From Caldalkalibacillus uzonensis (lineage in GTDB: Bacteria; Bacillota; Bacilli; Caldalkalibacillales; Caldalkalibacillaceae), in assembly GCF_030814135.1 (NCBI RefSeq), contig NZ_JAUSUQ010000015.1, positions 1 to 64,000 of the forward strand: a DNA stretch of 64,000 nucleotides, in the 5' to 3' direction. The first letter of the stretch is position 1. Each line of letters starts with the position of its first letter. Shown here one piece after another: positions 21,838-59,183 of the stretch. Position numbers and translations under genes: made by a program. Under the pieces are notes generated by a model. It was not told where the DNA came from, did no database searches, and saw only the letters and a program-made list of their open reading frames with translations.

Positions 21838-21926
21838 TGTCCCCAACTTCGGTGGATTTAACCGAAAAGTAGTGAAATACACAATTTTGCGCATTTTATG
21901 GCACGCTTTTTTGGGTTTTTAGCAGT

Positions 21927-21942
21927 TGGCACGGTTTTTGCT
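21927..21942 (+). promoter_or_regulatory. Sigma-54 (RpoN/SigL) promoter of acxABC
   Basis: TGGCACG-GTTT-TTGCT has the -24 GG at 21928-21929 and the -12 GC at 21940-21941 with the obligatory 10 bases between, an essentially perfect match to the sigma-54 consensus. Predicted transcription starts near 21953, about 40 bases before the proposed TTG start of acxA. A further inverted repeat (TTCGGT/ACCGAA, 21848-21866) lies between activator sites and promoter. Confidence 0.88.
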
Positions 21943-21992
21943 ATTTAATTTAGTACAACATGATAAAAATTGTTGAAAGGAGCGAATGTAGG

Positions 21993-27083: not shown

Positions 27084-29156
27084 TCACCTTAACCCGTACT
27101 TTTTGATTTTACGGTATAACGTCGTCCGGGCAATATTGCATTTTTTGGCCACCGCTGATAAATTCCAATTTGTCTGATCGAGCAATTGGAGCAACAATTT
27201 CTTTTCCTTGATTTCTAATGGGGATAAGTTCTTGTCTTGCTGCTGGGCATGGATGAGGTCATTTTCCCCTTCACTAAGGGACAAACCGGATGTCTCCTGC
27301 CCCTGCCCATAACCTTCAGTAGGGTCACGATGTCTTTCCTGCTGCCGTATTGTTGACGGGAGATGCTGAGGTTGTATGTAAGCTGTCTCTGCAAAAATAA
27401 CGGCATATTGAATAACGTTTTGCAGCTCACGGATGTTTCCAGGCCAGGAATACGATTCAAACAGAGATAAGGTACTCTCATCCAAACCGTCAATATTTTT
27501 ATTGTGTTGACGTGCATATTCTTTGAGAAAATAATGAGCCAGCGAAGGGATATCCTCTTTCCGCTCCCGCAAAGGGGGCATGTGTATGTCTACCACATTC
27601 AAGCGATAATACAAATCCTTGCGGAAACGCCCTTCCCGGACCATCTCCTCCAAATTTTTATTCGTCGCAGCAATGATACGTACATTGACTCTCCTGGGGG
27701 CGGAAGCGCCCAGCCGCAATACCTCACTCTCCTGTAAGACACGGAGCAAATAGACTTGCAGATCCAACGGCATTTCCCCGATTTCATCCAGAAACAATGT
27801 TCCGCCGTCTGCTTCTTCGAATTTCCCCTTTTTTCCTGCTTTGGCGCCACCGGTAAAAGTGCCAGGTTCATAACCAAACATTTCGCTTGCCATAAGCTCC
27901 TTCGGAATCGCACCGCAGTTAATGGCCAAAAATGTTTCTTTTTTACGCGGGCTGGCCTCATGAATTGTGCGGGCGATCTTTTCTTTTCCTGTACCGCTTT
28001 CACCGGTCAACAGGACGGGTACATCAGTATGGGCCACTTTCTGACATTGACGGATAACATTTTTAATGGCGTTGGATTGGCCAACGATGTGCTGCCACGG
28101 CTGGACATCATCAATAAGATAAAATGTACGGTTAATCTTGTTGATGTTTTTAAAAACGATTAAGTAACCGGCTATATCTTGATTGCACTGCAGGCGTTCA
28201 ATGCAGGCGTTACATCCGAATGCAGGTAATTCAACTTCGCTTTTCGTGTTGTTTTGCTGCTGTGGTGGACTTTGTGAATGCCTGACAAGTTCATTGACAA
28301 GCGGGTGGAATTCAGGTTTACTTTGCAAGTCTTTCCATTTTGAAAGTTGGAAATATTTAAGCATATGCGGATCACCTTTTACAACTTCCATGGCCGGATT
28401 TAAGAGTAAGACACCGTCATTTGGCCATCGGTTAACGGCTTGATCATAACTTGAGACTAAATAGTGATGCATGTCGGTCAATGACTGTTGGAATTGCTGC
28501 TGAATGGTAAAAGCGCTGGACAGAGCGGTGGCTAAAGTGTGAGGTTGTGCATCAGGCCAAAGTCCGGTAAGATCAAGGGCACCCAGCACTTCATTGGTAA
28601 ATGGATGAAGAATGGGAGCAGATGAGCACGTCCAGGGGTGACATCCTTGGCAAAAATGTTCTGCCGAAAAAATTTGCGTCGGTTGTTTAGTTACGATAGA
28701 TGTGCCGATTGCATTCGTTCCCGCTGCTTGTTCACTCCAATCTGCTCCTGGAACAAAGTTCATTTTTTCCGCTTCATTAAGAATACGGCGTTCACCTTTC
28801 AGATAGATAATCCGGCCGTTTTGATCGCATAAGGTGACAATGTAACCCGTCCCTGAAAGATGAAAAGATAAATCATCGATAATCGGTTTGGCAATCCGGT
28901 ACAGTTGAGAATTTTGGAGCAACTCCGTTAACTCTTTGTCGGTCAAGGCAAGCTTTGTTTCTTTTTGGCCTGGATCAACGCGGAGCGCCTGACAACGTTG
29001 CCATGATTGCAGGATTATTTCCCGTAATTTCTCTGTAAAAGGATTGCCGCCGGGGGGAGGATTTCCCTTAACGAAGTGTTCCCATGCATACTGTAATTCA
29101 GTGTTTTTTTGAGCCAGTTCACGGGTTGAGTATATAGCTATGTTGGGGTTTTTCAT
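27084..29156 (-). CDS. acxR: Sigma-54-dependent activator, AcoR/AcxR type
   Basis: Enhancer-binding protein expected to switch on acxABC. Domains in order: a GAF-like sensory region (about 80-220, with [15 protein letters not shown]), a linker with three cysteines in C-x2-C-x5-C spacing (315, 318, 324), an AAA+ domain with Walker A GESGTGKE (385-392) and Walker [12 protein letters not shown], and a C-terminal Fis-type helix-turn-helix ([20 protein letters not shown]). No receiver domain, so it likely senses a ligand directly. The sigma-54 contact loop reads GTFTGG instead of GAFTGA. The ATG follows GGAGGG. The gene is convergent with acxC. Two palindromic sites and a sigma-54 promoter stand before acxA. 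Confidence 0.88.
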
Positions 29157-44830: not shown

Positions 44831-46417
44831 CTACATTGCCTCATGGACCTCTTTATTTGATACCTCTACGCCTTTCTCATCTTGTTCCTCACTTTGTTCT
44901 TCGGTGATTGTCATGTCGTATTTCTCAGGAGATCTCGCAACCTTGATAAGTGAAATAACGACCATCAACCCCAGCAGCACAGCCGGGACGCCGCCAAGAT
45001 TAGAAAGCATTTTTATACCGTCGATTTGAGCAAAGCTGATCATCACCCAGGCAACTACACTTATTGTAACTCCCCATATGACTTTAATCATAATCCCCGG
45101 TTCAGGACTCTCGGGAGAGATACCTGTTGAACTGATACCCCCCATGGCTGCCAAAGTTGAATCTGCAGCCGTGACGAATGCTATAAAGACTATAAACAGA
45201 TAAACTGGAATGACCACTTGTGCTAAAGGCAGCGCGGCCATAACAGCATAAAGTACAGCTTCAGGGCCATTATTGGCTAAGATTTCACCAAGTCCTGCTC
45301 CGTTCATCTGCATGTAAATCGATGTTCCGCTGAATATGGTCATCCATAAACCGCCAAACAGTGCAGGCAAAGCAAAGTTGACCAAAATAAACGCTCTTAC
45401 CGTTTGGCCATAAGCAATTCTTCCCAGGAACAGGGCAGTGATAGCAGCCCAAGAAAACCAGTTGGCCCAGTAGAATGTAGTCCACCACTGTGGCCATTGG
45501 TCATCTGCAGCTGCACCAGTAAACAAACTTTTATCAAAAAAGTTGCTTAAATAATGCCCAAACGCTTCTGTTCCCAAATTTAACAAGTAGGCCGTTGGAC
45601 CAGCAAGAAACAAAAATAAAATGATTACAAAAAATAACTTGAAGTTGATATCAGACAAAATGCGTATCCCTTTCATTAACCCCGTAGAGGCGGAGACAAC
45701 AAAGGTGACCATCACAACAATGGCAATAACAGCCCAAAGGGATGGGGTACTTGGCAAACCACTTAAATAATTAACGCCCCCAGCTAAGTTCAGTATGCTT
45801 GTGCCCATCGCTGCAGCCATACCTAACGCCAATGTATATAAGCAAATGGCATCGATCCCTTTTCCCCATTTGCCAGTGATCTTATCCCCCAACAAAGGAG
45901 TCAGCGTAGAACTTAAACTGAAAGGCTTACGCATATTATAGTAAGCAAAAGCAAACATAAGAGCTGGGACACAGTAAATCGCATATGGTGTAATGGTCCA
46001 GTGCAAATACATAGTAGACATAGCAAATAGAGCCGCTTGTGGGCTATTGGCTTCAATACCAAGAGAAGCAGGGGGTGCTGTGAGATGATATATTGGTTCT
46101 ACTATCCCCCAGAATGTAATCCCAGCAGCAATCGTTGTCGTTAATGTAATTGCAAACCAATTACGAAAGGAAAGCAATGGCTTGGCATTTGTACCGCCTA
46201 TTCTTACCTTTCCCAAGGGTGAAAAATAAACACCGACACAGACTAAAACCATAATAAAGCCACTAACACTAAAAACCCAACCGAAATTAGCGATTAACCA
46301 TTCGTTGGCTCCATTGGCCATGCTTGTAAACGCATCTCGATGTGTGAAGCTTAAAATAGCAGCAATGAGTACAAGTAAAAATGGCGGCCAAAATACTAAA
46401 TGTTTTATCTTTTTCAT
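44831..46417 (-). CDS. BCCT-family transporter (betaine/carnitine/choline type)
   Basis: Secondary importer for a quaternary ammonium or sulfonium compound. 528 residues, twelve predicted spans, with the family's conserved WGIVEPIYHL near 110 and, in span 8, the tryptophan-rich FYWANWFSWAAITALFLGRIAYG, which I split as FYWANWFSWA and FLGRIAYGQTVR. The charged C-terminal tail (about 490-528) could sense osmolarity, as in BetP. The ATG follows GGAGGAT. It is the last gene of a seven-gene catabolic operon, so substrate uptake for catabolism rather than osmoprotection is the likely role. Confidence 0.92.
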   Translation of the reverse strand: MKKIKHLVFWPPFLLVLIAAILSFTHRDAFTSMANGANEWLIANFGWVFSVSGFIMVLVCVGVYFSPLGKVRIGGTNAKPLLSFRNWFAITLTTTIAAGITFWGIVEPIYHLTAPPASLGIEANSPQAALFAMSTMYLHWTITPYAIYCVPALMFAFAYYNMRKPFSLSSTLTPLLGDKITGKWGKGIDAICLYTLALGMAAAMGTSILNLAGGVNYLSGLPSTPSLWAVIAIVVMVTFVVSASTGLMKGIRILSDINFKLFFVIILFLFLAGPTAYLLNLGTEAFGHYLSNFFDKSLFTGAAADDQWPQWWTTFYWANWFSWAAITALFLGRIAYGQTVRAFILVNFALPALFGGLWMTIFSGTSIYMQMNGAGLGEILANNGPEAVLYAVMAALPLAQVVIPVYLFIVFIAFVTAADSTLAAMGGISSTGISPESPEPGIMIKVIWGVTISVVAWVMISFAQIDGIKMLSNLGGVPAVLLGLMVVISLIKVARSPEKYDMTITEEQSEEQDEKGVEVSNKEVHEAM

Positions 46418-46454: not shown

Positions 46455-47663
46455 TTACAAAATTGACTGATTCAAATCCTTTGATTTACTTGAAGTTTGC
46501 AAAATATCTGCTGCAAATTGTTTTAAATCAGCAGAGGTTGCTAAACGGCAGTTGTTCAGGCGCATGGGCGCATTCTCTTCTGATTCCATCACCTCCAAAA
46601 AACAATCTATGTCAGCTGCAGATAAATTTTCATCTTGGAGGGATAAATTTAACCCGCTTTCGGCTACCATTTGAGAAAATTGACTGGCACCTGCCAACGC
46701 CAATTCCTTCTCTGTTAATCCTTCATCTTTTACCCCGAGAGCGCGGGCGATTTCAGCATACATAGTGACCGCTGCTTCTGCGTTCCACATGTACGTCGCC
46801 ATTAAGGCAATGGTGACGGCCTTCCCGTGATGAATCCGCGCCAGCGTTCCCAGAGCATGACCAATACAATGGGCTATTCCTGTCCCTCCTTGTTCAATGG
46901 CCATGCCGGCCATAGTAGCAGCAAGGGCAAGCTTACCGCGTGCTTCAAGGTCATCAGGCCTGTGCAAAACCTTCTTTATGTTTTGGCTGATCAAGCGAAT
47001 CGCCTGTAAGCTAAAGGCTTCAATGATTGGGGTTGTTCTTTTTCCAGTGCAGGCTTCAATGGCATGAACAAGGGCGTCAAAAGTAGTAGCCGCAGTTAAT
47101 TGAGCGGGAAGAGCTGCTGTTAATTGGGGATCAATGATGGCCATATCAGGAGCCATTTCCGCATCCCAAGCCCACACCTTACGCTTATTTTCATCCGAAA
47201 AAACCACAGTGTTTGTCACTTCAGCACCCGTACCTGATGTTGTTGGAATCATGATTGTACAAATACTCTTTGGTGCAAAAGGATTTGCCATGAGTGCATA
47301 ATGCATGGCGGCTCTCTCCCCTCCAGCAACGAGCGCAGCCATTTTAGCTACATCCATGGCAGACCCTCCCCCAAGACCAAGCACACATTTGGCCCCACAG
47401 GAGCGGATGATTTCAGCTGCTTCATCAATAGATCCAGCCATTGGATCACTTTGCACATTGTGGAAGACCTGAATCTCAATGTCTTCCTTTTCCAAGGCCC
47501 CTATGACGTGATCAGCTAAACCTGCCTTTATTATCCCCGGATCAGTAATGAGTACAGCTTTATTACTTCGGCTCAATTTTTTGACATCTTTGCCAAGTTC
47601 CAAAGAGCGGTCAATCCCAAAAGCAATTTTTGTACGCGAACTAAATTCAAACGTATTTCCCAT
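46455..47663 (-). CDS. Iron-containing alcohol dehydrogenase (group III)
   Basis: NAD(P)-dependent oxidoreductase of 402 residues from ATG 47663 behind AGGAGGG. GLGGGSAMDVAK (about 95) binds the nucleotide, PTTSGTGAEVTN (about 135) is the family signature, and HCIGHALGTLARIHHGKA (about 260-277) supplies metal-binding histidines. It is similar in type to enzymes oxidising short hydroxy-acids or hydroxy-aldehydes, for instance in choline- or DMSP-like pathways. The substrate is not defined. Lies 37 bp before the BCCT gene. Confidence 0.9.
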   Translation of the reverse strand: MGNTFEFSSRTKIAFGIDRSLELGKDVKKLSRSNKAVLITDPGIIKAGLADHVIGALEKEDIEIQVFHNVQSDPMAGSIDEAAEIIRSCGAKCVLGLGGGSAMDVAKMAALVAGGERAAMHYALMANPFAPKSICTIMIPTTSGTGAEVTNTVVFSDENKRKVWAWDAEMAPDMAIIDPQLTAALPAQLTAATTFDALVHAIEACTGKRTTPIIEAFSLQAIRLISQNIKKVLHRPDDLEARGKLALAATMAGMAIEQGGTGIAHCIGHALGTLARIHHGKAVTIALMATYMWNAEAAVTMYAEIARALGVKDEGLTEKELALAGASQFSQMVAESGLNLSLQDENLSAADIDCFLEVMESEENAPMRLNNCRLATSADLKQFAADILQTSSKSKDLNQSIL

Positions 47664-47699
47664 CAAGCTATCCCTCCTAAACACCTATGCTAGCTAGCC

Positions 47700-47727: not shown

Positions 47728-48894
47728 TTAAGAAACGAATTCAAACCCTTCGCAGTCATCCATCGTTTGTGTGTCGGTTTTCACCGGCATCTCTATGATG
47801 GAACGTCCAACATTTATACAATTGCAGTCATGAAATGCATCAAATGCCTGGTTAATTTCCTCCAGCTTGAGGCGATTCAAAATGAGTTCATCAAGCATAA
47901 ATCGTCCATCTAAATAAAGACGGGCAATTGTCGGAAAATCACGAAACGGTTGTACATCTCCGTAAAAGCTTCCTCTCAAAATTTTCCCAACACGGTGAAA
48001 ACCTCCGGCGGGAAGACTGAGCACCTTGTGTGGATTAAACGCCCCCACAACAACCACAGTTCCTCCTTTTCGAGTGCCTTTCCATGCATTTTCTGTTGCT
48101 TCCGTATGACCTGAACAATCAATGGCAAAATGAACACCAAAACCTCCTGTTAACTCCTTCAGTGCTTCTTCTACATTGTCTTTAGCGACATTAACGGTAT
48201 GAGTCGCTCCAAACTTCTTGGCTATTTCCAAATTAGCTGGTTTCACATCACAGGCAATGATTTTGGCTGCCCCAGCAATTCGTGCACCCTGAATGGCATT
48301 AACGCCAACACCGCCAATACCAAAAACAGCTACAGTAGAACCTGGGGTTACTTTTGCTGCATTCACTGCCGCCCCATATCCCGTTGCCACACCGCAGCCG
48401 ATCAGAGAGGCTTGGGCCATGGGCATTTCATCAGGAAGCTTGACACATGACATCTCCGGCACCACGGTATATTCTGCAAAGGTTGACAGCAAGGAGTAAT
48501 GAAAAATGATGTTGTCATCTTTACTAAGTCTTGAAGTACCATCCAATAAGGTCCCATTAAACATAGGACCAAAAGCAGATTCACATAAATGTACCGCTCC
48601 TGTGACACAAAACTCACAGCGTCCGCAGTAAGGTACCCAGTTTAGAGCTACTTTATCCCCGACTTGAACGTTTGTTACATTGGGACCAACTTCCACTACA
48701 ATTCCTGCACCTTCATGACCAAGTATAGTCGGAGTGGGGGTCGTGCTGTCATTTAGCGCATTTAAATCACTGTGGCAAACACCTGTAGCTTCCACCTTAA
48801 CCAATACTTCATTTGCTTTTGGCGGAGCCAGATCGACCGCCTGGATTTCAAGCGGCCGTCCAACTCCTGTCATCACCGCTGCTTTTATTTTCAC
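47728..48894 (-). CDS. Zinc-dependent alcohol dehydrogenase (class III-like)
   Basis: Medium-chain dehydrogenase of about 388 residues. Catalytic zinc ligands lie in GVCHSDLN and GHEGAGIV, structural zinc cysteines in CGRCEFCVTGAVHLC, and the Rossmann GIGGVGVNA motif near 195. GTG 48894, behind GAGGGG, is preferred over the upstream ATG 48918, which has too short a spacing. The family includes glutathione-dependent formaldehyde dehydrogenases and aryl or short-chain ADHs. Formaldehyde removal during demethylation, or oxidation of an alcohol intermediate, are both possible. Confidence 0.88.
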   Translation of the reverse strand: MKIKAAVMTGVGRPLEIQAVDLAPPKANEVLVKVEATGVCHSDLNALNDSTTPTPTILGHEGAGIVVEVGPNVTNVQVGDKVALNWVPYCGRCEFCVTGAVHLCESAFGPMFNGTLLDGTSRLSKDDNIIFHYSLLSTFAEYTVVPEMSCVKLPDEMPMAQASLIGCGVATGYGAAVNAAKVTPGSTVAVFGIGGVGVNAIQGARIAGAAKIIACDVKPANLEIAKKFGATHTVNVAKDNVEEALKELTGGFGVHFAIDCSGHTEATENAWKGTRKGGTVVVVGAFNPHKVLSLPAGGFHRVGKILRGSFYGDVQPFRDFPTIARLYLDGRFMLDELILNRLKLEEINQAFDAFHDCNCINVGRSIIEMPVKTDTQTMDDCEGFEFVS

Positions 48895-48922
48895 TTTTTT
48901 CCCCTCATTTCCTCTCAAATGT

Positions 48923-50440
48923 TTAATAAGCTACCCAGATTGCTTTTGTTTTGGTGTAAGACTGAAGGGAATGAATGGCATATTCCTTACCCCAGCCACT
49001 TTGCTTTAAGCCTCCAAACGGACTGGCAAAATCATAACAGCCGTATCTGTTGACAAAAACCATTCCTGCCTGAAGCTTGTTGGCAACCCTGTGGGCGCGG
49101 GATACATCATTGGTCCACAATCCGGCGGCCAATCCATAGATGGTATCATTGGCCATTCTGATCACTTCTTCTTCCGTATCAAAAGGAATAATACACAGTA
49201 CAGGGCCAAATATTTCCTCTTGGGCAATGGTCATCTTGTTATCGACATCAGCAAATATAGTAGGGCGTATATAATATCCATTGGCATTCGTTCCTGTCAC
49301 ATCCCGCTCTCCGCCTGCTACAAGACGGGCTCCCTCCTGTTTGCCAATGTCAATATATCTTAAAATAGATTCCATATGAGCTTTTGATACTTGGGGGCCT
49401 TGGTCGCTTTCCGGGTCAAACGGGTCTCCGCATTTATAACCATTAGCGTATTCTGCCATTTTTTGAACCACGATGTCATAGATTTCGCGCTGCACAAACA
49501 GTCGAGTAGGTGCCGAACATTTTTCCCCTTTGTGTGTAAATAACCCGTAAAATGAACGCTCTATGGCACCATCCAAGTCAGGCGCATCACTGAAAATAAT
49601 ATTAGGAGATTTGCCACCCAGCTCCAGTGTCACCGGTTTCAAATTGGAGTCAGCTGAATCGTGAACCAATTGTTTACCTACCTTCGTACTGCCTGTAAAA
49701 GATATTTTGTCGACATCCATATGCCGGCTGAGGTAAGAGCCGATAGAACCCCGGCCCAGAATCAGATTAATCACACCCGGTGGCAGAAGTTCAGCCTTAT
49801 CGATAAGTTCAAATAAGCGAATCGCTGAGTAAGACGTGAGGCTGGAAGGTTTTAATACAACCGTATTGCCCATAGCCAGTGCAGGAGCCAGCTTCCAAAC
49901 GGCCATCCCAAGCGGAAAGTTGAATGGTACGATTTGTCCGCACACACCAATAGGATCCCGCGTTGTAAAACTTAAAAAATTCCCTTCTACCGGGTTGTTT
50001 TCCCCGTAATATTTATCAGTCCAACCAGCGTAATACTCAAATAAATCTGAGGCTTCCTGCACATCATCGTTGTAAGATTCCCTGTACAGTTTCCCATTAT
50101 CAAGAGATTCAAGTGTAGCTAGTTCAGCCTGATGTTGTTTAATTAACACACTAATTTGACGAAGTATTTTAGCTCTCTCTTTTCGGGACATATTTGGCCA
50201 TGGTCCATCGTCAAATGCCTTTCTGGCAGCAGCCACCGCGTGGTCTACATCCTCCCTTGTGGCACTTTGGATTGTGCCGTTAACCTCCCCGTTGGCCGGG
50301 TTGATAGATTCAATTACTTCGCTGCTTGAGCTATCCACCCATTGACCAGCGATATACAGCTTTTTGGTTTCCTTCAACCAATCTTTTGCCCAGTCAAGCT
50401 TAGGCTGCTCAATCCCTTCAAACACCTTAAAATGTGTCAT
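48923..50440 (-). CDS. Aldehyde dehydrogenase (ALDH superfamily, betaine-aldehyde type)
   Basis: Oxidises an aldehyde to its acid with NAD(P). 505 residues from ATG 50440 behind GGAGGGG. VTLELGGKSPNIIF (Glu base) lies near 260 and the nucleophile in GEKCSAPTRLF near 296; the substrate-tunnel end PFGGLKQSGWGKE is intact. The start lies inside the last codons of the aspartase-type gene, so translation is coupled. One of two ALDHs in this operon, which suggests two separate aldehyde steps. Confidence 0.93.
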   Translation of the reverse strand: MTHFKVFEGIEQPKLDWAKDWLKETKKLYIAGQWVDSSSSEVIESINPANGEVNGTIQSATREDVDHAVAAARKAFDDGPWPNMSRKERAKILRQISVLIKQHQAELATLESLDNGKLYRESYNDDVQEASDLFEYYAGWTDKYYGENNPVEGNFLSFTTRDPIGVCGQIVPFNFPLGMAVWKLAPALAMGNTVVLKPSSLTSYSAIRLFELIDKAELLPPGVINLILGRGSIGSYLSRHMDVDKISFTGSTKVGKQLVHDSADSNLKPVTLELGGKSPNIIFSDAPDLDGAIERSFYGLFTHKGEKCSAPTRLFVQREIYDIVVQKMAEYANGYKCGDPFDPESDQGPQVSKAHMESILRYIDIGKQEGARLVAGGERDVTGTNANGYYIRPTIFADVDNKMTIAQEEIFGPVLCIIPFDTEEEVIRMANDTIYGLAAGLWTNDVSRAHRVANKLQAGMVFVNRYGCYDFASPFGGLKQSGWGKEYAIHSLQSYTKTKAIWVAY

Positions 50441-51773
50441 CTGTATCCCCTCCATCTCTGAGTAATTGTTTAATTCCTTCAGGCCCCTCTTTTTTCAATA
50501 GCTGCGCTAAGGCAAAGTAACCATATTTTTCTTTCAAATCTACGACAGCCGGGATCAAACTCGTTGATAATGCCTCGCACCTTTCTTTATTGGCTTCAAT
50601 ACCGTACAAACATTTTTCAACGAATAAACGCAGGGCCTTGTTCAACATGTCCATGGCATCTAAGATATTGGCACCTGCCAAACCCTCGAATACATTCAAG
50701 TCAAGCTCTCCATGCTCAATAGCAGCTTGGACAGCACGGTCACAGCCAAGCACCTGAAAGCAGCATTGAATGAGGGTTTCAGGAATGACCGGATTCACCT
50801 TCCCTGGGAAAAATGAAGAACCAGCTTGCACAGCAGGAAGCCGCAATTCACCAAAACCGGCTTCAGGTCCAGATGACAAAAGACGTAAATCTTTAGCTAT
50901 CTTAATCAAACTTGTGGCAAGCAAACACAATTCACTGGACACTTGGGCAAGGTCATCCATATTTTGAGCTGCATCAAACAGATTTTCACGGTAACTGAGG
51001 GGCAGCTTGGAAACTTGGCACAGCTTTGGCAACACTGTTTCACGATACAACTTTGGAGCTCCAACCCCTGATCCGATCACCGTGCCCCCCAGATTGACTT
51101 GATGCAAGTTGGCAATGGTGGTAACAAGATGATCCAATCTCCTTTGAATAACAGTAGAATAAGCACTGAACTTTTCACCCAGTTTTGCGCGCATACCGTC
51201 CTGCAAACAGGTCCGGGCAATCGTATTGATATCTTGAAACTGCATGGCTTTTTCTTTGGTCACCTCAACCGTCGCTTTCACCGCCTCGCTGAGGGTATTA
51301 AAACTGAGGATAATGGCCATACGTATCGCAGTGTGGCATACATCGGAAGTGGATTGGGAGGCATTGACATGTGTTATCGGATGAACCGGATCATAATTTC
51401 CTCTGCTTCCTCCCAACTTTTCATTGGCTAAATTGGCTACCACCTCGTTCACATTCATATTGGCGCCAATACCGCCCCCGCCATGCAGCATATCAACCGG
51501 AAAATGCTCATGGTGTAACCCTGCTATGATCTCGTCACATGCCTGGATAATGGCCTCGCTCATTGCTTGGCTTAATAAGCCGGCTTCAAAATTGGCCTGG
51601 GCAGCCGCATGTTTGACCATGGCCAGTGCTTTCACATACATAGGATAGTGTTGTAACAGACGCCCTGAAAATGAAAGGTTGAGCATGGCCCGGGCCGTTT
51701 GAATACCGTACAAGGCAGCAGCGGGGATTTGCAAAGCTCCCAAATCATCTTTTTCTACCCTGAACTTGTTCAA
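50427..51773 (-). CDS. Aspartase/fumarase-superfamily lyase, divergent substrate site
   Basis: Member of the superfamily that eliminates an amine or water across the C2-C3 bond of a succinyl group. The SS-loop GSSFFPGKVNPVIPE is present. Positions that hold the carboxylates in aspartase differ: G-T-S-x-N-M-N reads GIGANMN (about 101-107), S-T-N-D reads STSD (about 141-144) and R-T-H/Q-L-Q-D reads RTCLQD (about 187-192). Straight aspartate ammonia-lyase activity is therefore doubtful; cleavage of an N-substituted or otherwise altered substrate is an alternative. TTG 51773 behind GAAGGTGA is chosen over ATG codons at 51803-51806, which lack a ribosome site. 448 residues. Clustered with ALDH genes on both sides. 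Confidence 0.85.
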   Translation of the reverse strand: MNKFRVEKDDLGALQIPAAALYGIQTARAMLNLSFSGRLLQHYPMYVKALAMVKHAAAQANFEAGLLSQAMSEAIIQACDEIIAGLHHEHFPVDMLHGGGGIGANMNVNEVVANLANEKLGGSRGNYDPVHPITHVNASQSTSDVCHTAIRMAIILSFNTLSEAVKATVEVTKEKAMQFQDINTIARTCLQDGMRAKLGEKFSAYSTVIQRRLDHLVTTIANLHQVNLGGTVIGSGVGAPKLYRETVLPKLCQVSKLPLSYRENLFDAAQNMDDLAQVSSELCLLATSLIKIAKDLRLLSSGPEAGFGELRLPAVQAGSSFFPGKVNPVIPETLIQCCFQVLGCDRAVQAAIEHGELDLNVFEGLAGANILDAMDMLNKALRLFVEKCLYGIEANKERCEALSTSLIPAVVDLKEKYGYFALAQLLKKEGPEGIKQLLRDGGDTDDTF

Positions 51774-51814
51774 TCTGTCACCTTCCCTGCCGTTGGTATT
51801 CATCATTGATCTAA

Positions 51815-53269
51815 TCAGAAATTAAGATTTAAAAACTTGTATTCCAAATAATCTTCCAATCCATGGCGGCCACCTTCACGTCCCATGCCGCTTTGTTTGA
51901 TACCACCAAACGGTGCCTGCACATATCCTAGAGTTGAAGCATTAATTCCCACCATGCCGTATTCTAGTTCATTGGAGACGCGCATGGTGCGTGCCAGATC
52001 ACGCGTATAGAGATAAGCAGCTAGACCGTATGGTGTATCATTGGCCATCTGCACCACTTCTTCATCTGTATTAAATACAATGATTGGTGCAACTGGGCCG
52101 AAGGTTTCTTCACGGTATACCTTCATGTCGGGTGTTACACCACAGAGCACTGTCGGCTGATAAAAGTTTCCCCTTGCATACTCACCCTCAGTAAGCGGCT
52201 GTCCTCCCGCGACGATAACTGCCCCTTTGGAGACAGCATCTTGCACATGTTCCATGACTTTTTCCAACGCTTGCTGATGAATAAGGGGACCCACTTGATT
52301 GGCAGGATCCAGACCATTGCCCACTTTCAATCCTTTCACTTTTTCCACTAATTTGACCGTAAATGCATCAGCCACTTCACTGTGAACAAAAATACGGTTG
52401 GCGCAAATACATGTTTGACCGTTGTTTTGAAATTTGTTGATCATTAAGCCGTCCACCGCGAGATCAAGGTCTGCGTCGTTGAAGACAATATACGGTGCAT
52501 GCCCCCCTAGTTCCAGGGATACCTTCTTCACGGTTTTGGCGGATTGCTCCATTAAGTACTTGCCAACTTGAGTCGATCCCGTAAAACTGATTTTTCTTAC
52601 TTTTTCACTGCTAACAAGCACAGAACCAATTTCTTGGGCATCTCCCAGCACCAGGTTGGCGACACCTCTGGGCAAACCGGCCTGTTCAAAGATTTCAAAT
52701 AAGGCTATAGCTGAAAGCGGTGTCTCCGGTGCTGGCTTAACAACGACAGTACAGCCTGCTGCCAACGCCGGGGCCAACTTTCTAGTAATCATAGAAGAAG
52801 GGAAATTCCAGGGGGTGATGGCCCCTACGACACCGATGGGTTGTCTTTGCACCAGCAGCCGCTGTCTATGTCCAGAAGGCGGGATGATCTCACCGTAGAC
52901 CCGCCGCGCCTCTTCGGCATACCACAACATAAACTCGGCTCCCCAAAGCACTTCACCCTTGGCTTCTTCAAACGGCTTTCCTTGTTCAAGTGTCATGATT
53001 TCGGCCAATCGGTCTGCCTTGTCTATAATTAAATGATAGATTTGACGCAGTATGGCTGCGCGTTCATCTGCTGTACTGTTTGCCCATGCTGGAAATGCCT
53101 GATAAGCTGCTTCTACGGCTTGTTGTGCTTCTTGTGCTCCTCCATAAGCCACCTCAGCCACGACTTCCCCTGTAGCAGGGTTTAAAATAGTTGATTTGGC
53201 ATCTGAACAAGCCTCTGTCCATTGTCCGTCAATATACATTTGTGTTCTTACCTTTACAGACGTTTCCAT
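51815..53269 (-). CDS. Aldehyde dehydrogenase (succinate-semialdehyde dehydrogenase-like)
   Basis: 484 residues from ATG 53269 (RBS GAGAGGAG), one base after the stop of the enolase-type gene. VSLELGGHAPYIVF near 250 and NGQTCICANRIFV near 286 supply the catalytic Glu and Cys; PFGGIKQSGMGREGG closes the active site. The closest recognisable type is GabD, which converts C4 semialdehydes to dicarboxylates. Together with a lyase acting on succinyl-type compounds it suggests the carbon skeleton ends as a C4 dicarboxylate. Confidence 0.93.
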   Translation of the reverse strand: METSVKVRTQMYIDGQWTEACSDAKSTILNPATGEVVAEVAYGGAQEAQQAVEAAYQAFPAWANSTADERAAILRQIYHLIIDKADRLAEIMTLEQGKPFEEAKGEVLWGAEFMLWYAEEARRVYGEIIPPSGHRQRLLVQRQPIGVVGAITPWNFPSSMITRKLAPALAAGCTVVVKPAPETPLSAIALFEIFEQAGLPRGVANLVLGDAQEIGSVLVSSEKVRKISFTGSTQVGKYLMEQSAKTVKKVSLELGGHAPYIVFNDADLDLAVDGLMINKFQNNGQTCICANRIFVHSEVADAFTVKLVEKVKGLKVGNGLDPANQVGPLIHQQALEKVMEHVQDAVSKGAVIVAGGQPLTEGEYARGNFYQPTVLCGVTPDMKVYREETFGPVAPIIVFNTDEEVVQMANDTPYGLAAYLYTRDLARTMRVSNELEYGMVGINASTLGYVQAPFGGIKQSGMGREGGRHGLEDYLEYKFLNLNF

Positions 53270-53270
53270 G

Positions 53271-54401
53271 TTACTCCTCTCCCACGTAGACATGGTTGAT
53301 TTCATATTTTTTCAGTGCCTCTTCATTTAACTCAATGCCAAGCCCCGGTTTTTCCGGTACGATCAAATAACCGTCTGAATCAATCATAAGCGGCTCCTGT
53401 TGAACAAAATCACGCCGGTCAACGGACCACACCGGAGGATCATACGGAAACTCCAAATACGGACAGTGGCTTACCGCTGCAGCAAGATGCAGATTGGCCA
53501 GCAAGCCGATGCCATTGGACCAGGTATGGGGACTAAACCAGGCACCACTACCTTGCACAAGATCAGCAATTTTCTTCACCTGTGTAATCCCTCCCGCCAG
53601 GGCAACATCCGGCTGATAAACGTCAAGGACATGATGTTTATTCATCTCTCTAAAGTCATACCAATTACGGTTCATTTCTCCACCCGCTATACGGAGGCTC
53701 ACCATTTCCCGCAGCTTGGCCATCAGTTCAAAATGGTGTGAGGGCAGGGGCTCTTCAAGCCAAAAAACATTTAATTGTTCAAGTTCCTTGGCAACCTGGC
53801 AGGCCATTTTCAAATCCCAAGTCCGCTCAACATCCCATGGCATTTTCCAGCCCTGGTTGGCATCAACCATAATGTCAAGCTTGTTACCCACTGCTTTTCT
53901 AACCGCTTCGACTACCTTAAGATCTTCTCTCACATCTTCATGATGGAAGCGAATCTTCATTGCTTTAAATCCTTGCTCAACTAACAACTGGGCACGCTCA
54001 GCCCTTTCTTCCGGTGAGACAATTTCACCGGTTGAAGCGTAAGCAAGTAATTTATTTGAACGTCCCCCAAGCAGTTTATAAACGGGCTGACCCGTTGCTT
54101 TTCCAATCAAATCCCATAAGGCCAAATCAAGGGGCCAGCACCGTCCATAGTGGAAATTGATATTGTCAATCACCTGCACATGACGCTCAATGGCAAATGG
54201 ATCCTGGCCGATAAAAAGGTGTTCATGTCCTTCGAATCCAACCATTAAATCTCCAGAACCAATGCCCGTGAGACCTTCATCTGTGTGCACATAGACAATG
54301 GTTGTGGCAAACTTTCTGCGCGGTTCAGGATCCCACGCCGCTTTAAACGGAGGCTCTAGCGGAAGCAGATAGTGCTTGATCTCAACCGATGTAATTTTCA
54401 T
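53271..54401 (-). CDS. Enolase-superfamily enzyme, mandelate racemase subgroup
   Basis: Acts on a carboxylate by taking its alpha proton. 376 residues: capping domain 1-115, then a barrel with metal ligands in VDANQGW (D), FWLEEPL (E) and AGGEMN (E). The His-Asp dyad of the mandelate racemase subgroup is seen in YQPDVALAGG (D) and FSPHTWSNG (H). The K-x-K base motif reads K-I-R, so only one side has a clear base, which favours dehydration or a one-sided reaction over racemisation. The ATG follows AGGAAGG. First gene of a sigma-54-driven operon. The substrate is unknown. Confidence 0.87.
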   Translation of the reverse strand: MKITSVEIKHYLLPLEPPFKAAWDPEPRRKFATTIVYVHTDEGLTGIGSGDLMVGFEGHEHLFIGQDPFAIERHVQVIDNINFHYGRCWPLDLALWDLIGKATGQPVYKLLGGRSNKLLAYASTGEIVSPEERAERAQLLVEQGFKAMKIRFHHEDVREDLKVVEAVRKAVGNKLDIMVDANQGWKMPWDVERTWDLKMACQVAKELEQLNVFWLEEPLPSHHFELMAKLREMVSLRIAGGEMNRNWYDFREMNKHHVLDVYQPDVALAGGITQVKKIADLVQGSGAWFSPHTWSNGIGLLANLHLAAAVSHCPYLEFPYDPPVWSVDRRDFVQQEPLMIDSDGYLIVPEKPGLGIELNEEALKKYEINHVYVGEE

Positions 54402-54450
54402 CTCAACCTTCCTCCCTGAAAAGTTACTCCAATCTTCATGCGCTTATAGA

Positions 54451-54470
54451 TTTGCAAAAATGATGCCAAA
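54451..54470 (-). promoter_or_regulatory. Sigma-54 promoter of the onium-type catabolic operon
   Basis: On the minus strand TTTGGCATCATTTTTGCAAA has GG (54466-54467) and GC (54454-54455) separated by exactly 10 bases, fitting TGGCAC-N5-TTGCA well. Transcription would start near 54442, about 40 bases before the enolase-type gene. The NtrC-type regulator gene lies 1.2 kb away. Confidence 0.82.
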
Positions 54471-54513
54471 GACAAAAATCCCTTTCTGGCAATCATTGAT
54501 TGAATGGGAACAT

Positions 54514-54542
54514 CAAAAGTGTGTGAAGATTCAACACTTTTG
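54514..54542. promoter_or_regulatory. Inverted repeat, candidate enhancer site
   Basis: CAAAAGTGT (54514-54522) and ACACTTTTG (54534-54542) form a 9-bp perfect inverted repeat with an 11-bp spacer, about 50-70 bp upstream of the sigma-54 promoter. This fits binding by a dimeric NtrC-type regulator. A second weaker dyad (TCAC-AGATTCA-GTGA) lies near 54574-54588. Confidence 0.55.
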
Positions 54543-54629
54543 CTGTGTGATTGTTCTACACTGTTGAGGTTTTTCACAGATTCAGTGACCACACAACAGA
54601 CATTCCCCACAGTCAGGGATCATTTGATC

Positions 54630-54677
54630 AAAAAAAAAAGCGCCCTTTTTACTGAGGACGTATACATCATGGCGCTT
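54630..54677 (-). terminator. Terminator of the kinase-regulator-lipoprotein operon
   Basis: On the minus strand AAGCGCC (54671-54677) pairs with GGCGCTT (54638-54644), followed by about ten T (54630-54639). The loop is 26 nt and includes the lipoprotein stop codon, an unusually long loop. Confidence 0.6.
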
Positions 54678-55632
54678 CTAGCAAACCTTTTTCTATTAAA
54701 AATTCTTTCGCTACTTTTGTCAGATCCATGTGTTGAACATCAACCAAATAGTTTAAATGGATCATCTCTTCATTCGTAATGGACCGGGCCAGCTCTTCCA
54801 ATACGGGGATGACAGGGGCGTGTTTATGATACACCTCTTCTAAAACAACAGGTGCGGCATGATAAGGAGGAAAAGCTTGTTGATCATCTTGCAAAACGGT
54901 TAGGTGGTATTCTTCGATTCGGCTGTCTGAGATCATACCGACAGCAACATGAACCCTGTCTTCTTTGACGGCAAGTGTTAAGAGCTCAGAATCAATAGCG
55001 ATGAGTTGATCTTGACTAACAGAAAAATGATACACATGCTGCAAATGTTCCAGACCGTCTTCCCTAATAAGAAATTCTTCATTTGTTGCAAATTTTATAG
55101 GGTGGTCATGAGCTTTAATATACCTGATTAAGTCACTGATAGTGACTAGCTGATGTTCTTCAGCAAATGATTTTTTGACGATAATGCCCCAGCTGCTGTT
55201 AAAGTCACTGCGGTCAAGCCAGATCAGATGATGTTGGGCATCATGCTCTTTTACCGCTGCATAAGCCTCATCCGGATCAAAAATTGGAAGCTCTTTATGA
55301 TAATACATTCGGGCTGTACTGGTGTATTCCCAATATATATCGATGACCTGCTCTTCTATGGCTGTACGGATGGAAGGGCTGTCCAAAAAACGTATCTCTT
55401 TCACATCATAACCTTGGTCCCGCAGTAATAACGCAGTCATCTTCATTAATAAGTATTGTTCGGTGAGAGACTTGGAACCCAGTGTGATCAGCGGGCGTTG
55501 TTCCGACTGTATCACAAGTTCTTTTTCCACTGTCTGGCTGGAGCGGATACTGCAAGAAACAAGCAAGAAGATGCAAAACAATAGGATCAGGGTGTTCAGG
55601 TTAATTTTTATCAAGATGGGGCTTCTTCTCAT
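54667..55632 (-). CDS. OpuCC/ProX-like substrate-binding lipoprotein without ABC partner
   Basis: 321 residues: N-terminal hydrophobic signal ending LLVSCS (lipobox cysteine about 27), then the OpuAC-type fold with TLGSKSLTEQYLLMKM, VIDIYWEYTSTARM and FNSSWGIIVKK, which parallel the G-S-K-x-x-T-E-Q, D-x-Y-x-E-Y-T-x-T and F-N-N-T blocks of OpuCC/ProX osmoprotectant receptors. No permease or ATPase gene is adjacent. It follows the response regulator by 12 bp, so it most likely presents a betaine-like ligand to the kinase rather than to a transporter. Confidence 0.85.
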   Translation of the reverse strand: MRRSPILIKINLNTLILLFCIFLLVSCSIRSSQTVEKELVIQSEQRPLITLGSKSLTEQYLLMKMTALLLRDQGYDVKEIRFLDSPSIRTAIEEQVIDIYWEYTSTARMYYHKELPIFDPDEAYAAVKEHDAQHHLIWLDRSDFNSSWGIIVKKSFAEEHQLVTISDLIRYIKAHDHPIKFATNEEFLIREDGLEHLQHVYHFSVSQDQLIAIDSELLTLAVKEDRVHVAVGMISDSRIEEYHLTVLQDDQQAFPPYHAAPVVLEEVYHKHAPVIPVLEELARSITNEEMIHLNYLVDVQHMDLTKVAKEFLIEKGLLEAP

Positions 55633-55644
55633 CTCTTTTCCCCC

Positions 55645-57012
55645 TCACGATTTCAGACCCATCTTTTTAATTTTATAGATCAGTGCGTGACGGGAAATAC
55701 CCAGTCTCTCTGCTGCCTTGGTTTGATTGCCGTTTGTTTCTTCCAAAGCCTGCTTGATCATTTTGGCCTCCACTTCTTCCAGCACCTTGGGTAAAGGACC
55801 TGATAAGAAATTGAACGACTGGTCCGTTCCGGATGGGAAATTATGTCGTTTTTCTTCAAAATAAAGAGATGCTTGAACTAAGTCTTCCGGATGAATGGTG
55901 CCTTTTCGTTTTAAAATATGCACCCTTTCCAAGATATTTAACAGTTCCCTTACATTGCCCGGCCAATGGTAATCGGAAAGGATGGTGAGACACTGTGCAT
56001 CAATAGATATGTGTTTGTTATACTTTGCATTTAAATAGGACATGTAATGATCAATTAAAAGGGGAATGTCCTCCTTGCGTTCTCGCAATGGGGGCACATT
56101 CACTTCGATTAGGTTTAAGCGATAATAAAGATCCTCTCGGAATGCTCCGGCTTTAACCATTTCTCTTATGTTTTTGTTGGTAGCTGTGATGATTCTGACG
56201 TCCACTTCCTGGTAATCATTACTTCCTAACTGCATGACACGCTTTTCTTCCAGGACATGCAGAAGTTTGGCTTGCATCTTAGCGGAGATTTCCCCAATTT
56301 CATCTAAAAAAATCGTACCGCCGCCAGCTGCAGTAAATTTCCCCGCCTTGGACGAAGTCGCACCGGTAAAAGCACCTTTTTTATAACCAAACAATTCGCT
56401 TTCCAGTAAGGACTCCGGGATAGCAGCACAGTTGATGGACAGAAAGGGCCCGTTTCGACGATGACTATGCTCATGAATCCACTTTGCCAGGGCCGTTTTT
56501 CCCACTCCGCTCTCACCCAGAATTAATATGCTGACATCAGTTTCTTTGACTTGTTCCAATAGTGCCATGATGCTTTTCATTTTTTGGCTTTTAAACTTAA
56601 AGACATTCCTTGTATCGCTTTTTCCGTGCTGGATATTTTTCGATCGTTCAGCACAGTATTTTAAAACAACATCCTTCAGTTCTGCTAATTCAATTGGTTT
56701 ATTCAAATAGTCTGCCGCCCCTAATTTCATGGCCTTAACAGCACTTTCCACATTTCCATAGGCCGTAAGCATAATGACCGGAAGACGCTCCTTATTTTTC
56801 TTAATCTCTTTAAGGACTTCCAATCCTGTCATATCAGGAAGCAAATAGTCCAGAATGACAACATCAACGTGATGATGTTTTAAAAGCGTCAACGCTTCCT
56901 TGCCATTATGAGCCAAATGGCAATGGATAGCTGCCTTCTTCAATTTGCGAGCAATTAATTTACACAACTGGACTTCATCATCAACTATTAATACAGTGTA
57001 TTGCTCTGTCAT
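55645..57012 (-). CDS. NtrC-family response regulator (sigma-54 activator)
   Basis: Activates the sigma-54 promoter of the neighbouring catabolic operon after phosphorylation. 455 residues from ATG 57012 (RBS GGGAGGA): receiver domain with VDDE and acceptor DVVILDYLLPDMTGL (D about 53), AAA+ domain with GESGVGKT, the canonical loop GAFTGA and GGTIFLDEIGE, and a Fis-type DNA-binding end TKAAERLGISRHALIYKIKK. Four-base overlap with the kinase stop (ATGA) shows coupling. All functional residues are present. Confidence 0.94.
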   Translation of the reverse strand: MTEQYTVLIVDDEVQLCKLIARKLKKAAIHCHLAHNGKEALTLLKHHHVDVVILDYLLPDMTGLEVLKEIKKNKERLPVIMLTAYGNVESAVKAMKLGAADYLNKPIELAELKDVVLKYCAERSKNIQHGKSDTRNVFKFKSQKMKSIMALLEQVKETDVSILILGESGVGKTALAKWIHEHSHRRNGPFLSINCAAIPESLLESELFGYKKGAFTGATSSKAGKFTAAGGGTIFLDEIGEISAKMQAKLLHVLEEKRVMQLGSNDYQEVDVRIITATNKNIREMVKAGAFREDLYYRLNLIEVNVPPLRERKEDIPLLIDHYMSYLNAKYNKHISIDAQCLTILSDYHWPGNVRELLNILERVHILKRKGTIHPEDLVQASLYFEEKRHNFPSGTDQSFNFLSGPLPKVLEEVEAKMIKQALEETNGNQTKAAERLGISRHALIYKIKKMGLKS

Positions 57013-59183
57013 ATTAATTCCTCCCTTACTCTGTCTTGTGCAAACCGACATTGAACCTTCGTTCCTTCACCAACCAGGCTGTCTATTGTCAATTCGCCGT
57101 TATGCTCGCTGATAATATCCCTGGCAATGGTTAAGCCGAGCCCATTCCCGCTTTCTTTTGTTGAGAAAAATGGATCAAACAGCCACTCTAAATCCTTTTC
57201 CGGAATACCTGCACCTGTATCAGTAATTGTGACAACTTTCTCCTTGGAGTGATCCCCTACTCCCTCTGTCCCAATGGAGACTGTTAATGTCCCTCCGTCT
57301 GGCATCGCTTCAATGGCATTTAAAACTAAATTTAAGAAGGCCTGGATCAGTTGATCTCTTTGTCCAATCAATTTAAAAGGATGAGCATAGTGGCGGTCGA
57401 CAATTACTCTACATTCACGTAATTTTAAACGCACAAGATGAAGGACTTCTTCCATCACATCCTTGATATCAATCAGTTCTTTGTTTCTTTTGTTTATTTT
57501 AGCAAAGCTCAGAAAGTTATTGACCGTATCTTTCATTCGCTGGACAACCTGGTAGATATCTAACGATAGTTCCTTCACTTCTTCCGTGCAAGCTGCTTCT
57601 TCAGCCGATTCCAACAAAAGCTCAGTAGAACCAGAAAGAATAGCAAGGGGATTCTTGATCTCATGGGCAATGCCTGTTGTAATTTGTCCGATTAAAGCTA
57701 ATTTATCATTTTGTTTGAGGCGTGATTCAAGCAATTTCATCTGGGAAATGTCTTGCAATACGGCGATACTCCCGATTACTTCTTGCTGCTCATTATAAAA
57801 TCTTGCCGTACATATTTTCACAATCAGCTTTTGTCCTTCCGAATTGATAATGTAACTCTCACTTTCTCCTTGAGAAGATTCAGAAGACAATGCGTCCAGC
57901 AGGAGGAAATCATCATCTTGTTTGATTGGCAGCTGTGACAGCGGCTTGCCAATCATGTCTTTACGGCAATAACCCACCATATTTTCAAATTGCTTATTGA
58001 CATAACTAATCTTAGCTTCTTTATTGATCGTAATAATGCCATAAGGAATTCCTTCCAGCACATCTTGCAAATAACGTTCTTTTTCCTCCAGCATTTTTTG
58101 TTTTTGATAATTGCTGTTTCCTACCGAAATAATCGTTTTCCACAGCTCTCCCAATTCATCATCAGGGTACTTATAAATATTTTCCTCGGGTTCATAATAT
58201 ATTTGCTCGCGGTAGCGTTTGGCATAATTGGTCAATCGGACAATCGGATAAACAATGTTGCGCATGCCCGTCCAGATAAAAAGCAGTGAAAGAGCTAATA
58301 TGCTGGCAAAACTGATTGTCAGGACGGATGAAAGTTTTTGGATTGGTTCATAGGCAATATATTCAGGAACCCCAAAGACTAAACTCCAGCCATCACGCAG
58401 GGTTTGGTAAGCAATGATACTTTTCTCATCACGATAATGGTCCTTCAAGACACCATACAAATCATGATCTAAATGACCAAATACTGCTTCTGCTGAAAGA
58501 TCAACACCAATTTCTCTTTCATTCGTGGAAGCAATCACACGACCCTGACTATCGATCAAAAAGCTGAAATGTCCGTTTGTTACACTAAAACTCTTCAAAA
58601 CTTCAGACAGATAATCATTGCTCAGTTCTGCTATTAGTACACCCTTGAACTGCTGCCTATCTGAAAGGACCGGAATGGCTACTGTCACAACGCCTTCACC
58701 GCGGGGGTTAGTTACGAAGTCCGATACAGCATAATTGCGGCTCCAGTACACCTGAGAAAAGTATGGATAATCATAATAGACCGGCTCTATATCCGGAGCA
58801 AACGGAGCCTCAAACAGAATCAACTGGTCCTCATTAAGTAAGTAAATAGAGTGAATGATGGAGCTCTGGGAGATAGCCAATTTAGAACGATGGAAGATTC
58901 GTTCCACATCAAGTTGATGATCTTCAACATTCCCAACAATAAGCCTTAGTTGCAAAACAACATCGGTTAGTTCGTTGTTTAAACGTTTCACCATCCCATC
59001 AGTGGTGACTACATTCGTATTAATAATATCCTGCTCAATGGTTTGTTTTGCATAACCAACAATTAACTGATAAATAATGAGAGTTGGAATAATAAATGTG
59101 ATGGCGAACAAGACCACATACTTTAATCTAATACTTTTTCTTAGAGGACTTACTAATCTGTTATAAAGCGCTGTCAAATCCAT
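57009..59183 (-). CDS. Sensor histidine kinase with extracellular dCache and PAS domains
   Basis: 724 residues: TM1 about 23-45, extracellular double-Cache region about 50-290, TM2 about 295-315, a linker, PAS domain about 365-480 (GIPYGIITINKEAKISYVN), HisKA with GIAHEIKNPLAIL (phospho-His) and HATPase with NLVLNAIEAMPDGG, DTGAGIPE and GNGLGLTI. This is the DctB/AtoS-like layout that pairs with NtrC-type regulators. The ATG follows AAGGAG. The ligand is likely a small carboxylate or the loaded lipoprotein encoded downstream. Confidence 0.93.
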   Translation of the reverse strand: MDLTALYNRLVSPLRKSIRLKYVVLFAITFIIPTLIIYQLIVGYAKQTIEQDIINTNVVTTDGMVKRLNNELTDVVLQLRLIVGNVEDHQLDVERIFHRSKLAISQSSIIHSIYLLNEDQLILFEAPFAPDIEPVYYDYPYFSQVYWSRNYAVSDFVTNPRGEGVVTVAIPVLSDRQQFKGVLIAELSNDYLSEVLKSFSVTNGHFSFLIDSQGRVIASTNEREIGVDLSAEAVFGHLDHDLYGVLKDHYRDEKSIIAYQTLRDGWSLVFGVPEYIAYEPIQKLSSVLTISFASILALSLLFIWTGMRNIVYPIVRLTNYAKRYREQIYYEPEENIYKYPDDELGELWKTIISVGNSNYQKQKMLEEKERYLQDVLEGIPYGIITINKEAKISYVNKQFENMVGYCRKDMIGKPLSQLPIKQDDDFLLLDALSSESSQGESESYIINSEGQKLIVKICTARFYNEQQEVIGSIAVLQDISQMKLLESRLKQNDKLALIGQITTGIAHEIKNPLAILSGSTELLLESAEEAACTEEVKELSLDIYQVVQRMKDTVNNFLSFAKINKRNKELIDIKDVMEEVLHLVRLKLRECRVIVDRHYAHPFKLIGQRDQLIQAFLNLVLNAIEAMPDGGTLTVSIGTEGVGDHSKEKVVTITDTGAGIPEKDLEWLFDPFFSTKESGNGLGLTIARDIISEHNGELTIDSLVGEGTKVQCRFAQDRVREELI

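Follow-up and report, generated by a model that had tools for sequence, protein, structure and literature searches.

A predicted SigL-dependent control circuit for a betaine-type catabolic operon of Caldalkalibacillus uzonensis and its apparent rewiring in Cohnella-type relatives

The 64-kb stretch of the Caldalkalibacillus uzonensis genome analyzed here (64,000 nucleotides; hereafter "the window") carries a catabolic operon directly next to the genes of a two-component system, which raises the question of whether this system controls the operon and, if so, through which promoter and which binding sites. A first-pass annotation of the sequence had proposed that a sigma-54 promoter and a perfect 9-bp inverted repeat upstream of the operon tie the two together. 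We conclude with high confidence that the neighboring kinase and regulator together with SigL would drive the seven-gene operon through a three-site enhancer and a -24/-12 promoter. The features on which this conclusion is built, i.e., the promoter element, the enhancer array, sigL, the intact GAFTGA loop, gene order, and covariation with regulator type, are all established as sequence features. The earlier reading needs two corrections: the predicted operator is an array of three TGT-N11-ACA sites and not the 9-bp dyad, and the distance between enhancer and promoter varies between genomes.

The catabolic operon and the adjoining two-component system

The seven catabolic genes are encoded on the minus strand (54401 to 44831) and form an operon based on their spacing, as they overlap or are separated by gaps of no more than 43 bp. 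The first gene is preceded by a ribosome-binding site (GGGAGGAAGG; 54407-54416, minus strand) and encodes an enolase superfamily protein of the mandelate racemase / sugar-acid dehydratase type (53271-54401; Pfam MR_MLE_C, 9.6e-65; orthologues at 66-86%). It is followed on the same strand by an aldehyde dehydrogenase of the succinate-semialdehyde dehydrogenase type (51815-53305; TIGR01780, 672 bits, over the cut-off), a lyase of the aspartase/fumarase superfamily (50427-51806; Pfam Lyase_1; PRK12273, 494.8 bits, below the cut-off of 510), a betaine-aldehyde dehydrogenase-like aldehyde dehydrogenase (48923-50455; TIGR01804, 552 bits, below the cut-off), a zinc-type alcohol dehydrogenase (47728-48918), an iron-type alcohol dehydrogenase (46455-47684; closest to the models for choline dehydrogenase GbsB and ErcA, with both matches below the cut-off), and, as the last gene, a transporter of the BCCT (betaine/carnitine/choline) family (44831-46417; Pfam BCCT, 3.2e-129). 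In many relatives, the BCCT transporter is replaced by an OpuB-type ABC transporter, and this supports some quaternary-ammonium or betaine-like compound as the substrate. Candidates considered in light of the BCCT and OpuB transporters and the enzyme set were carnitine, choline, and a sulfonium compound similar to DMSP, and none was adopted because matches to solved structures and families were not decisive.

The two-component operon lies upstream in the same direction and ends in a terminator-like stem followed by a T run (54641-54660, minus strand). It encodes a sensor histidine kinase with dCache, PAS, HisKA, and HATPase domains (57009-59183, minus strand), a response regulator of the NtrC/AtoC type (55645-57051, minus strand; the true start may be an internal Met at about 57012), and, as its third gene, a lipoprotein-like substrate-binding protein of the OpuAC family (54667-55632, minus strand; Pfam OpuAC, 1.3e-48) with relatives that bind choline-like ligands. 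The response regulator has the domain composition of NtrC-type proteins with a receiver, an AAA+ domain (Sigma54_activat), and a Fis-type HTH (HTH_8), and both its GAFTGA sigma-54 contact loop and its Walker motifs are intact. As the first-pass annotation had stated, it is the only NtrC-type regulator with a receiver in the window, since the second of the two Sigma54_activat proteins encoded there (27084-29156) has no receiver domain. The gene for the binding protein is kept together with the kinase and regulator genes in all operon-linked loci that have the system as well as in L104 and L124-L128.

In the proposed circuit, the histidine kinase would detect an external quaternary-ammonium or betaine-like compound, probably with the help of the adjacent OpuAC-type lipoprotein, and would then phosphorylate the response regulator. 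The latter is predicted, with strong support from the sequence, to bind three 17-bp palindromic sites upstream of the -24/-12 element. Going by the mechanism of its family, the regulator would oligomerize there and loop to the SigL RNA polymerase, and GAFTGA-dependent ATPase remodeling would open the promoter at 54469-54453. The seven-gene operon would thereby be switched on and the compound imported and broken down.

A -24/-12 promoter and a three-site enhancer

The first-pass annotation had located a GG-N10-GC motif on the minus strand before the operon, and direct reading bears this out: positions 54470-54451 read TTTGGCATCATTTTTGCAAA, with GG at 54467-54466 and GC at 54455-54454. The 17-base site TTGGCATCATTTTTGCA (54453-54469, minus strand) matches the sigma-54 consensus TTGGCAY-N5-TTGCW with GG and GC 10 bp apart. 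Even the slightly shorter pattern TGGCAY-N5-TTGCW is found at only two places in the 64-kb window, at the operon head and at 21926-21942 on the plus strand. Sigma-54 promoter geometry predicts a transcription start at 54442 on the minus strand, 12 bp past the -12 GC and about 41 nt from the A of the ATG at 54401. The described position of about 40 bases before the start codon therefore fits this predicted start point but not the site itself, whose 3' end is 51 bp away from that A.

Two findings could have undermined the assignment according to the first-pass annotation, i.e., a genome without sigL or a transcription start elsewhere with a sigma-A promoter, and we encountered neither. A single sigL gene is present in this genome and encodes all three of the AID, CBD, and DBD domains, and a crude scan of the intergenic region (54380-54700) gave no sigma-A-type match. 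Across the whole 3.88-Mb genome, the strict pattern TTGGCAYN5TTGCW occurs at 33 sites compared to none for the same pattern read backwards as a control. About 22 of 25 strict sites examined (from 20 genome regions) are located 24-163 bp before the start of an open reading frame, so that -24/-12 matches in this genome are mostly real promoters.

The perfect 9-bp inverted repeat CAAAAGTGT-N11-ACACTTTTG is likewise present upstream of the promoter (54514-54542, minus strand; 45-73 bp upstream of the site). Its perfection and its position are what would speak for the repeat itself being the operator, possibly of an unrelated repressor. On its own the repeat is marginal, though, given that around 11 such dyads occur in the 64-kb window and that 4.1% of dinucleotide shuffles of the upstream region contain one. 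A genome-wide search for relaxed copies yielded 31 matches per strand compared to 42 in the control, which means that no regulon is visible from the dyad, and it was rejected as an operator on these grounds. It also overlaps the third site of an array whose layout is conserved, as described below, and we thus regard an operator role of the repeat as highly improbable.

This predicted upstream activating sequence (UAS) extends from 54578 to 54520 on the minus strand and consists of three 17-bp TGT-N11-ACA sites with the spacing 17-1-17-7-17. Site 1 (TGTGAAAAACCTCAACA; 54562-54578) is separated by 1 bp from site 2 (TGTAGAACAATCACACA; 54544-54560), which is in turn 7 bp from the promoter-proximal site 3 (TGTTGAATCTTCACACA; 54520-54536), so that the whole array reads TGTGAAAAACCTCAACA-G-TGTAGAACAATCACACA-GCAAAAG-TGTTGAATCTTCACACA. 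At the same place, orthologous loci show perfect dyads with arms of 20 bp (L061), 19 bp (L069), and 17 bp (L060), and these large dyads are made up of 17-bp units that follow the pattern TGT-N11-ACA or a variant thereof. The Peribacillus locus L060 has three such units with the same 17-1-17-7-17 spacing. The register of the sites was first chosen by eye across genomes, and the window had been viewed in this way before the layout was fixed; the L060 units are near-perfect palindromes, which fixes the register independently of that choice.

We built a matrix solely from the three L060 units, with their layout held fixed, and ran it on other sequences. In the 64-kb window its best score is 25.7 at 54578-54520, followed by 2.1 as the next best on the same strand and by a best score of 13.8 on the opposite strand that falls into the same region. 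None of 5000 shuffles of the window's upstream region reached the score of the array (maximum 11.1, mean -11.6). In the Paenibacillus radicis locus (L067), the matrix gave a best score of 38.7 compared to -1.6, and this match is located just upstream of the -24/-12 element. The sites in the window are imperfect palindromes, and the -24/-12 element follows roughly 50-110 bp downstream of them. The 9-bp dyad is an off-register piece of this predicted three-site enhancer that overlaps its third unit.

Palindromic enhancer sites at a variable distance from the promoter are a hallmark of NtrC-type regulators, and this is what the comparison of loci with a GAFTGA-bearing regulator revealed. The distance from enhancer to -24/-12 element is 71 bp in the window (calculated from coordinates), 58.5 bp in L067, 69.5 bp in L060, 79.5 bp in L064, 81 bp in L068, and about 82 bp in L061 and L069, as would be expected for looping. 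No triple array was found upstream of other sigma-54 promoters examined in the C. uzonensis genome, and we therefore claim no further member of the regulon. A check for autoregulation revealed no UAS ahead of the window's kinase gene.

Conservation and change of the circuit across genomes

Scanning the genomes of 84,980 species for the first enzyme of the operon identified 41 loci, of which about 17 are close. All six other loci that combine the operon with a system of the sigma-54 (GAFTGA) type carry a -24/-12 element at the operon head (L060, L061, L064, L067, L068, and L069). Their gene order is kinase, regulator, and OpuAC-type protein followed by the -24/-12 element and the operon, except that regulator and kinase are swapped in L067, and the first operon genes of L061 and L067 are transporter genes. 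No -24/-12 element was found in five operon loci without the two-component system (L059, L062, L063, L070, and L073), which belong to two Fictibacillus, a Lysinibacillus, a Metabacillus, and an Aeribacillus and have a divergent AraC-type gene upstream. The response regulator is absent from related genomes of the same family and order. Cre-like sequences were seen upstream of the catabolic genes in the AraC-type loci, e.g., TGAAAGCGTTTTTA in L073.

These five close relatives have the same genes without a -24/-12 element, and the Cohnella-type loci described below show a sigma-A-like box. Both observations could suggest that the operon of C. uzonensis is mainly transcribed by sigma-A polymerase, with the -24/-12 match being decorative or of minor importance. 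The crude scan of the window's intergenic region and the exact -24/-12 elements in all six other GAFTGA-type loci argue against this explanation, which we consider the least probable of those weighed here. Another possibility would be a true sigma-54 promoter that is driven by some other enhancer-binding protein than the neighboring regulator. The genome encodes around 25 strong Sigma54_activat proteins, and the nearest paralogue of the regulator (48% identical) adjoins a transporter operon of the OpuB type that has a sigma-54 promoter of its own. However, this promoter lacks TGT-N11-ACA sites, the triple array was seen at no other sigma-54 promoter examined in the genome, and UAS and -24/-12 element track the neighboring regulator across genera. 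Control by another activator is thus very unlikely, even though it ranks first among the alternatives. The link between operon and neighboring two-component system that the first-pass annotation had drawn is accordingly supported by gene order, by co-occurrence with the -24/-12 element, by the conserved enhancer, and by the loop-less clade presented below.

In three Paenibacillus genomes, an rpoN gene is located inside or beside the catabolic cluster (L108:1359-2684, L106:8819-10114, and L107:8982-10286), which again links the cluster to sigma-54. The sole rpoN gene of P. radicis is found directly upstream of the regulator gene, while P. alginolyticus and Paenibacillus sp. N3.4 have an extra rpoN just beyond the last dehydrogenase of the operon and a DUF2179 gene. 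At another locus (L104:3375-4595), the linker of the regulator before the HTH contains an in-frame TGA, and a selA-like gene is located 3.8 kb downstream; this TGA may stem from a nonsense mutation, an error in sequencing, or another cause.

Three Cohnella loci (L065, L066, and L074) have the two-component system without a -24/-12 element, and their regulators lack the GAFTGA stretch but retain a Walker A motif and the greater part of the AAA+ domain. Adding five further Cohnella-type genomes (L124-L128), the GAFTGA loop is absent from 8/8 regulators, and none of these eight relatives shows a -24/-12 element at the operon. All seven loop-less loci with the operon downstream have kept a pair of 17-bp UAS units with 6-bp spacing, and in each of them a CATAAT box follows exactly 33 bp downstream of the UAS. 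A spacing this constant suggests that the regulator contacts sigma-A polymerase directly, just as the variable enhancer distance of the other loci suggests looping. A phylogenetic tree indicates a single origin of the loop-less clade (support 100/100), which groups with GAFTGA-bearing regulators of Brevibacillus and Paenibacillus (100/99). The loop deletion is hence one event on the tree, and loop loss and promoter change count as one correlated observation rather than many. The sigma-54 gene is absent from five of the eight loop-less genomes and present in the other three, so that genome-wide loss of sigma-54 alone did not drive the change. The loop-less clade also has another UAS-like pair (17-4-17) ahead of the kinase gene (L065:2356, L066:2212, L074:5371, L124:900, L125:1097, and L126:910), which suggests autoregulation there.

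The Cohnella-type lineage would fairly likely represent a case of natural rewiring in which exactly the GAFTGA loop and also the -24/-12 element were lost, the enhancer was kept, and a sigma-A-type -10 box was gained at a fixed distance of 33 bp, turning an NtrC-type looping activator into one that activates the same operon by conventional contact. Within the wider family, a regulator has apparently been converted from sigma-54 to sigma-A dependence, a view that rests on a single evolutionary event. Together with the window, these relatives would supply before-and-after versions of one promoter on the way from AAA+ looping activator to sigma-A activator.

Known systems and the sigma-54 network of the genome

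NtrC/AtoC-type two-component activators acting on sigma-54 promoters via TGT-N10-12-ACA enhancers are well known, e.g., from groups reconstructed in Clostridiales (PMC6615313). The system described here shares with them a GAFTGA-bearing AAA+ activator with Fis-type HTH, multiple TGT-N11-ACA sites, the promoter consensus TTGGCATNNNNNTTGCT, and a target adjoining the regulator gene. It differs in regulator group and lineage, in having a response regulator whose operon encodes an OpuAC-type lipoprotein as its third gene, and in its closer enhancers (58-82 bp compared to typically 100-250 bp). The predicted circuit is very probably real and of an already known type. Word searches of the literature found no published description of this particular system, which would add a concrete SigL circuit for an uncharacterized betaine-type catabolic operon in Bacilli.

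For the loop-less regulators, the closest precedents are the NtrC proteins of Rhodobacter capsulatus and Caulobacter, which lack GAFTGA and act on sigma-70 promoters (PMC10274813). Like the Cohnella-type orthologues, they are receiver-AAA-HTH regulators from which the L1 loop is deleted, whereas the regulator in the window keeps the loop, and the promoter of the same operon can here be compared between loop-bearing and loop-less relatives. We found no loop-less NtrC described for Bacillota in open papers, with the precedents being from Alphaproteobacteria. For the lipoprotein, the closest precedent is GltB, which assists two-component sensing by GtrS-GltR in Pseudomonas aeruginosa (PMC7927077). 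Both cases combine an extracytoplasmic solute-binding protein with a kinase/regulator pair, but the assistance is a prediction here and the protein belongs to the OpuAC (choline/betaine) family instead of being sugar-binding.

Strict -24/-12 sites number 33 in this 3.9-Mb genome, which also encodes about 25 activators, and many of its catabolic operons are apparently under sigma-54 control; the first genes behind these sites encode, e.g., acyl-CoA dehydrogenase, enoyl-CoA hydratase, and CoA-transferase-like proteins. Two sites with identical promoter 17-mers (C18:7054 and C22:22928) were considered as co-regulated; neither has upstream TGT-N11-ACA sites, and we thus treat the identity as coincidence. 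The paralogous kinase/regulator pair with the 48% identical regulator (G000 C1; L129:5347-12529) is followed by the sigma-54 promoter and the OpuB-type ABC transporter operon mentioned above, with a different enhancer. The second promoter in the window has the full consensus (TTGGCACGGTTTTTGCT; 21926-21942, plus strand) and precedes acetone-carboxylase-like genes that begin at 21960, with the receiver-less Sigma54_activat protein (27084-29156) as their probable activator.
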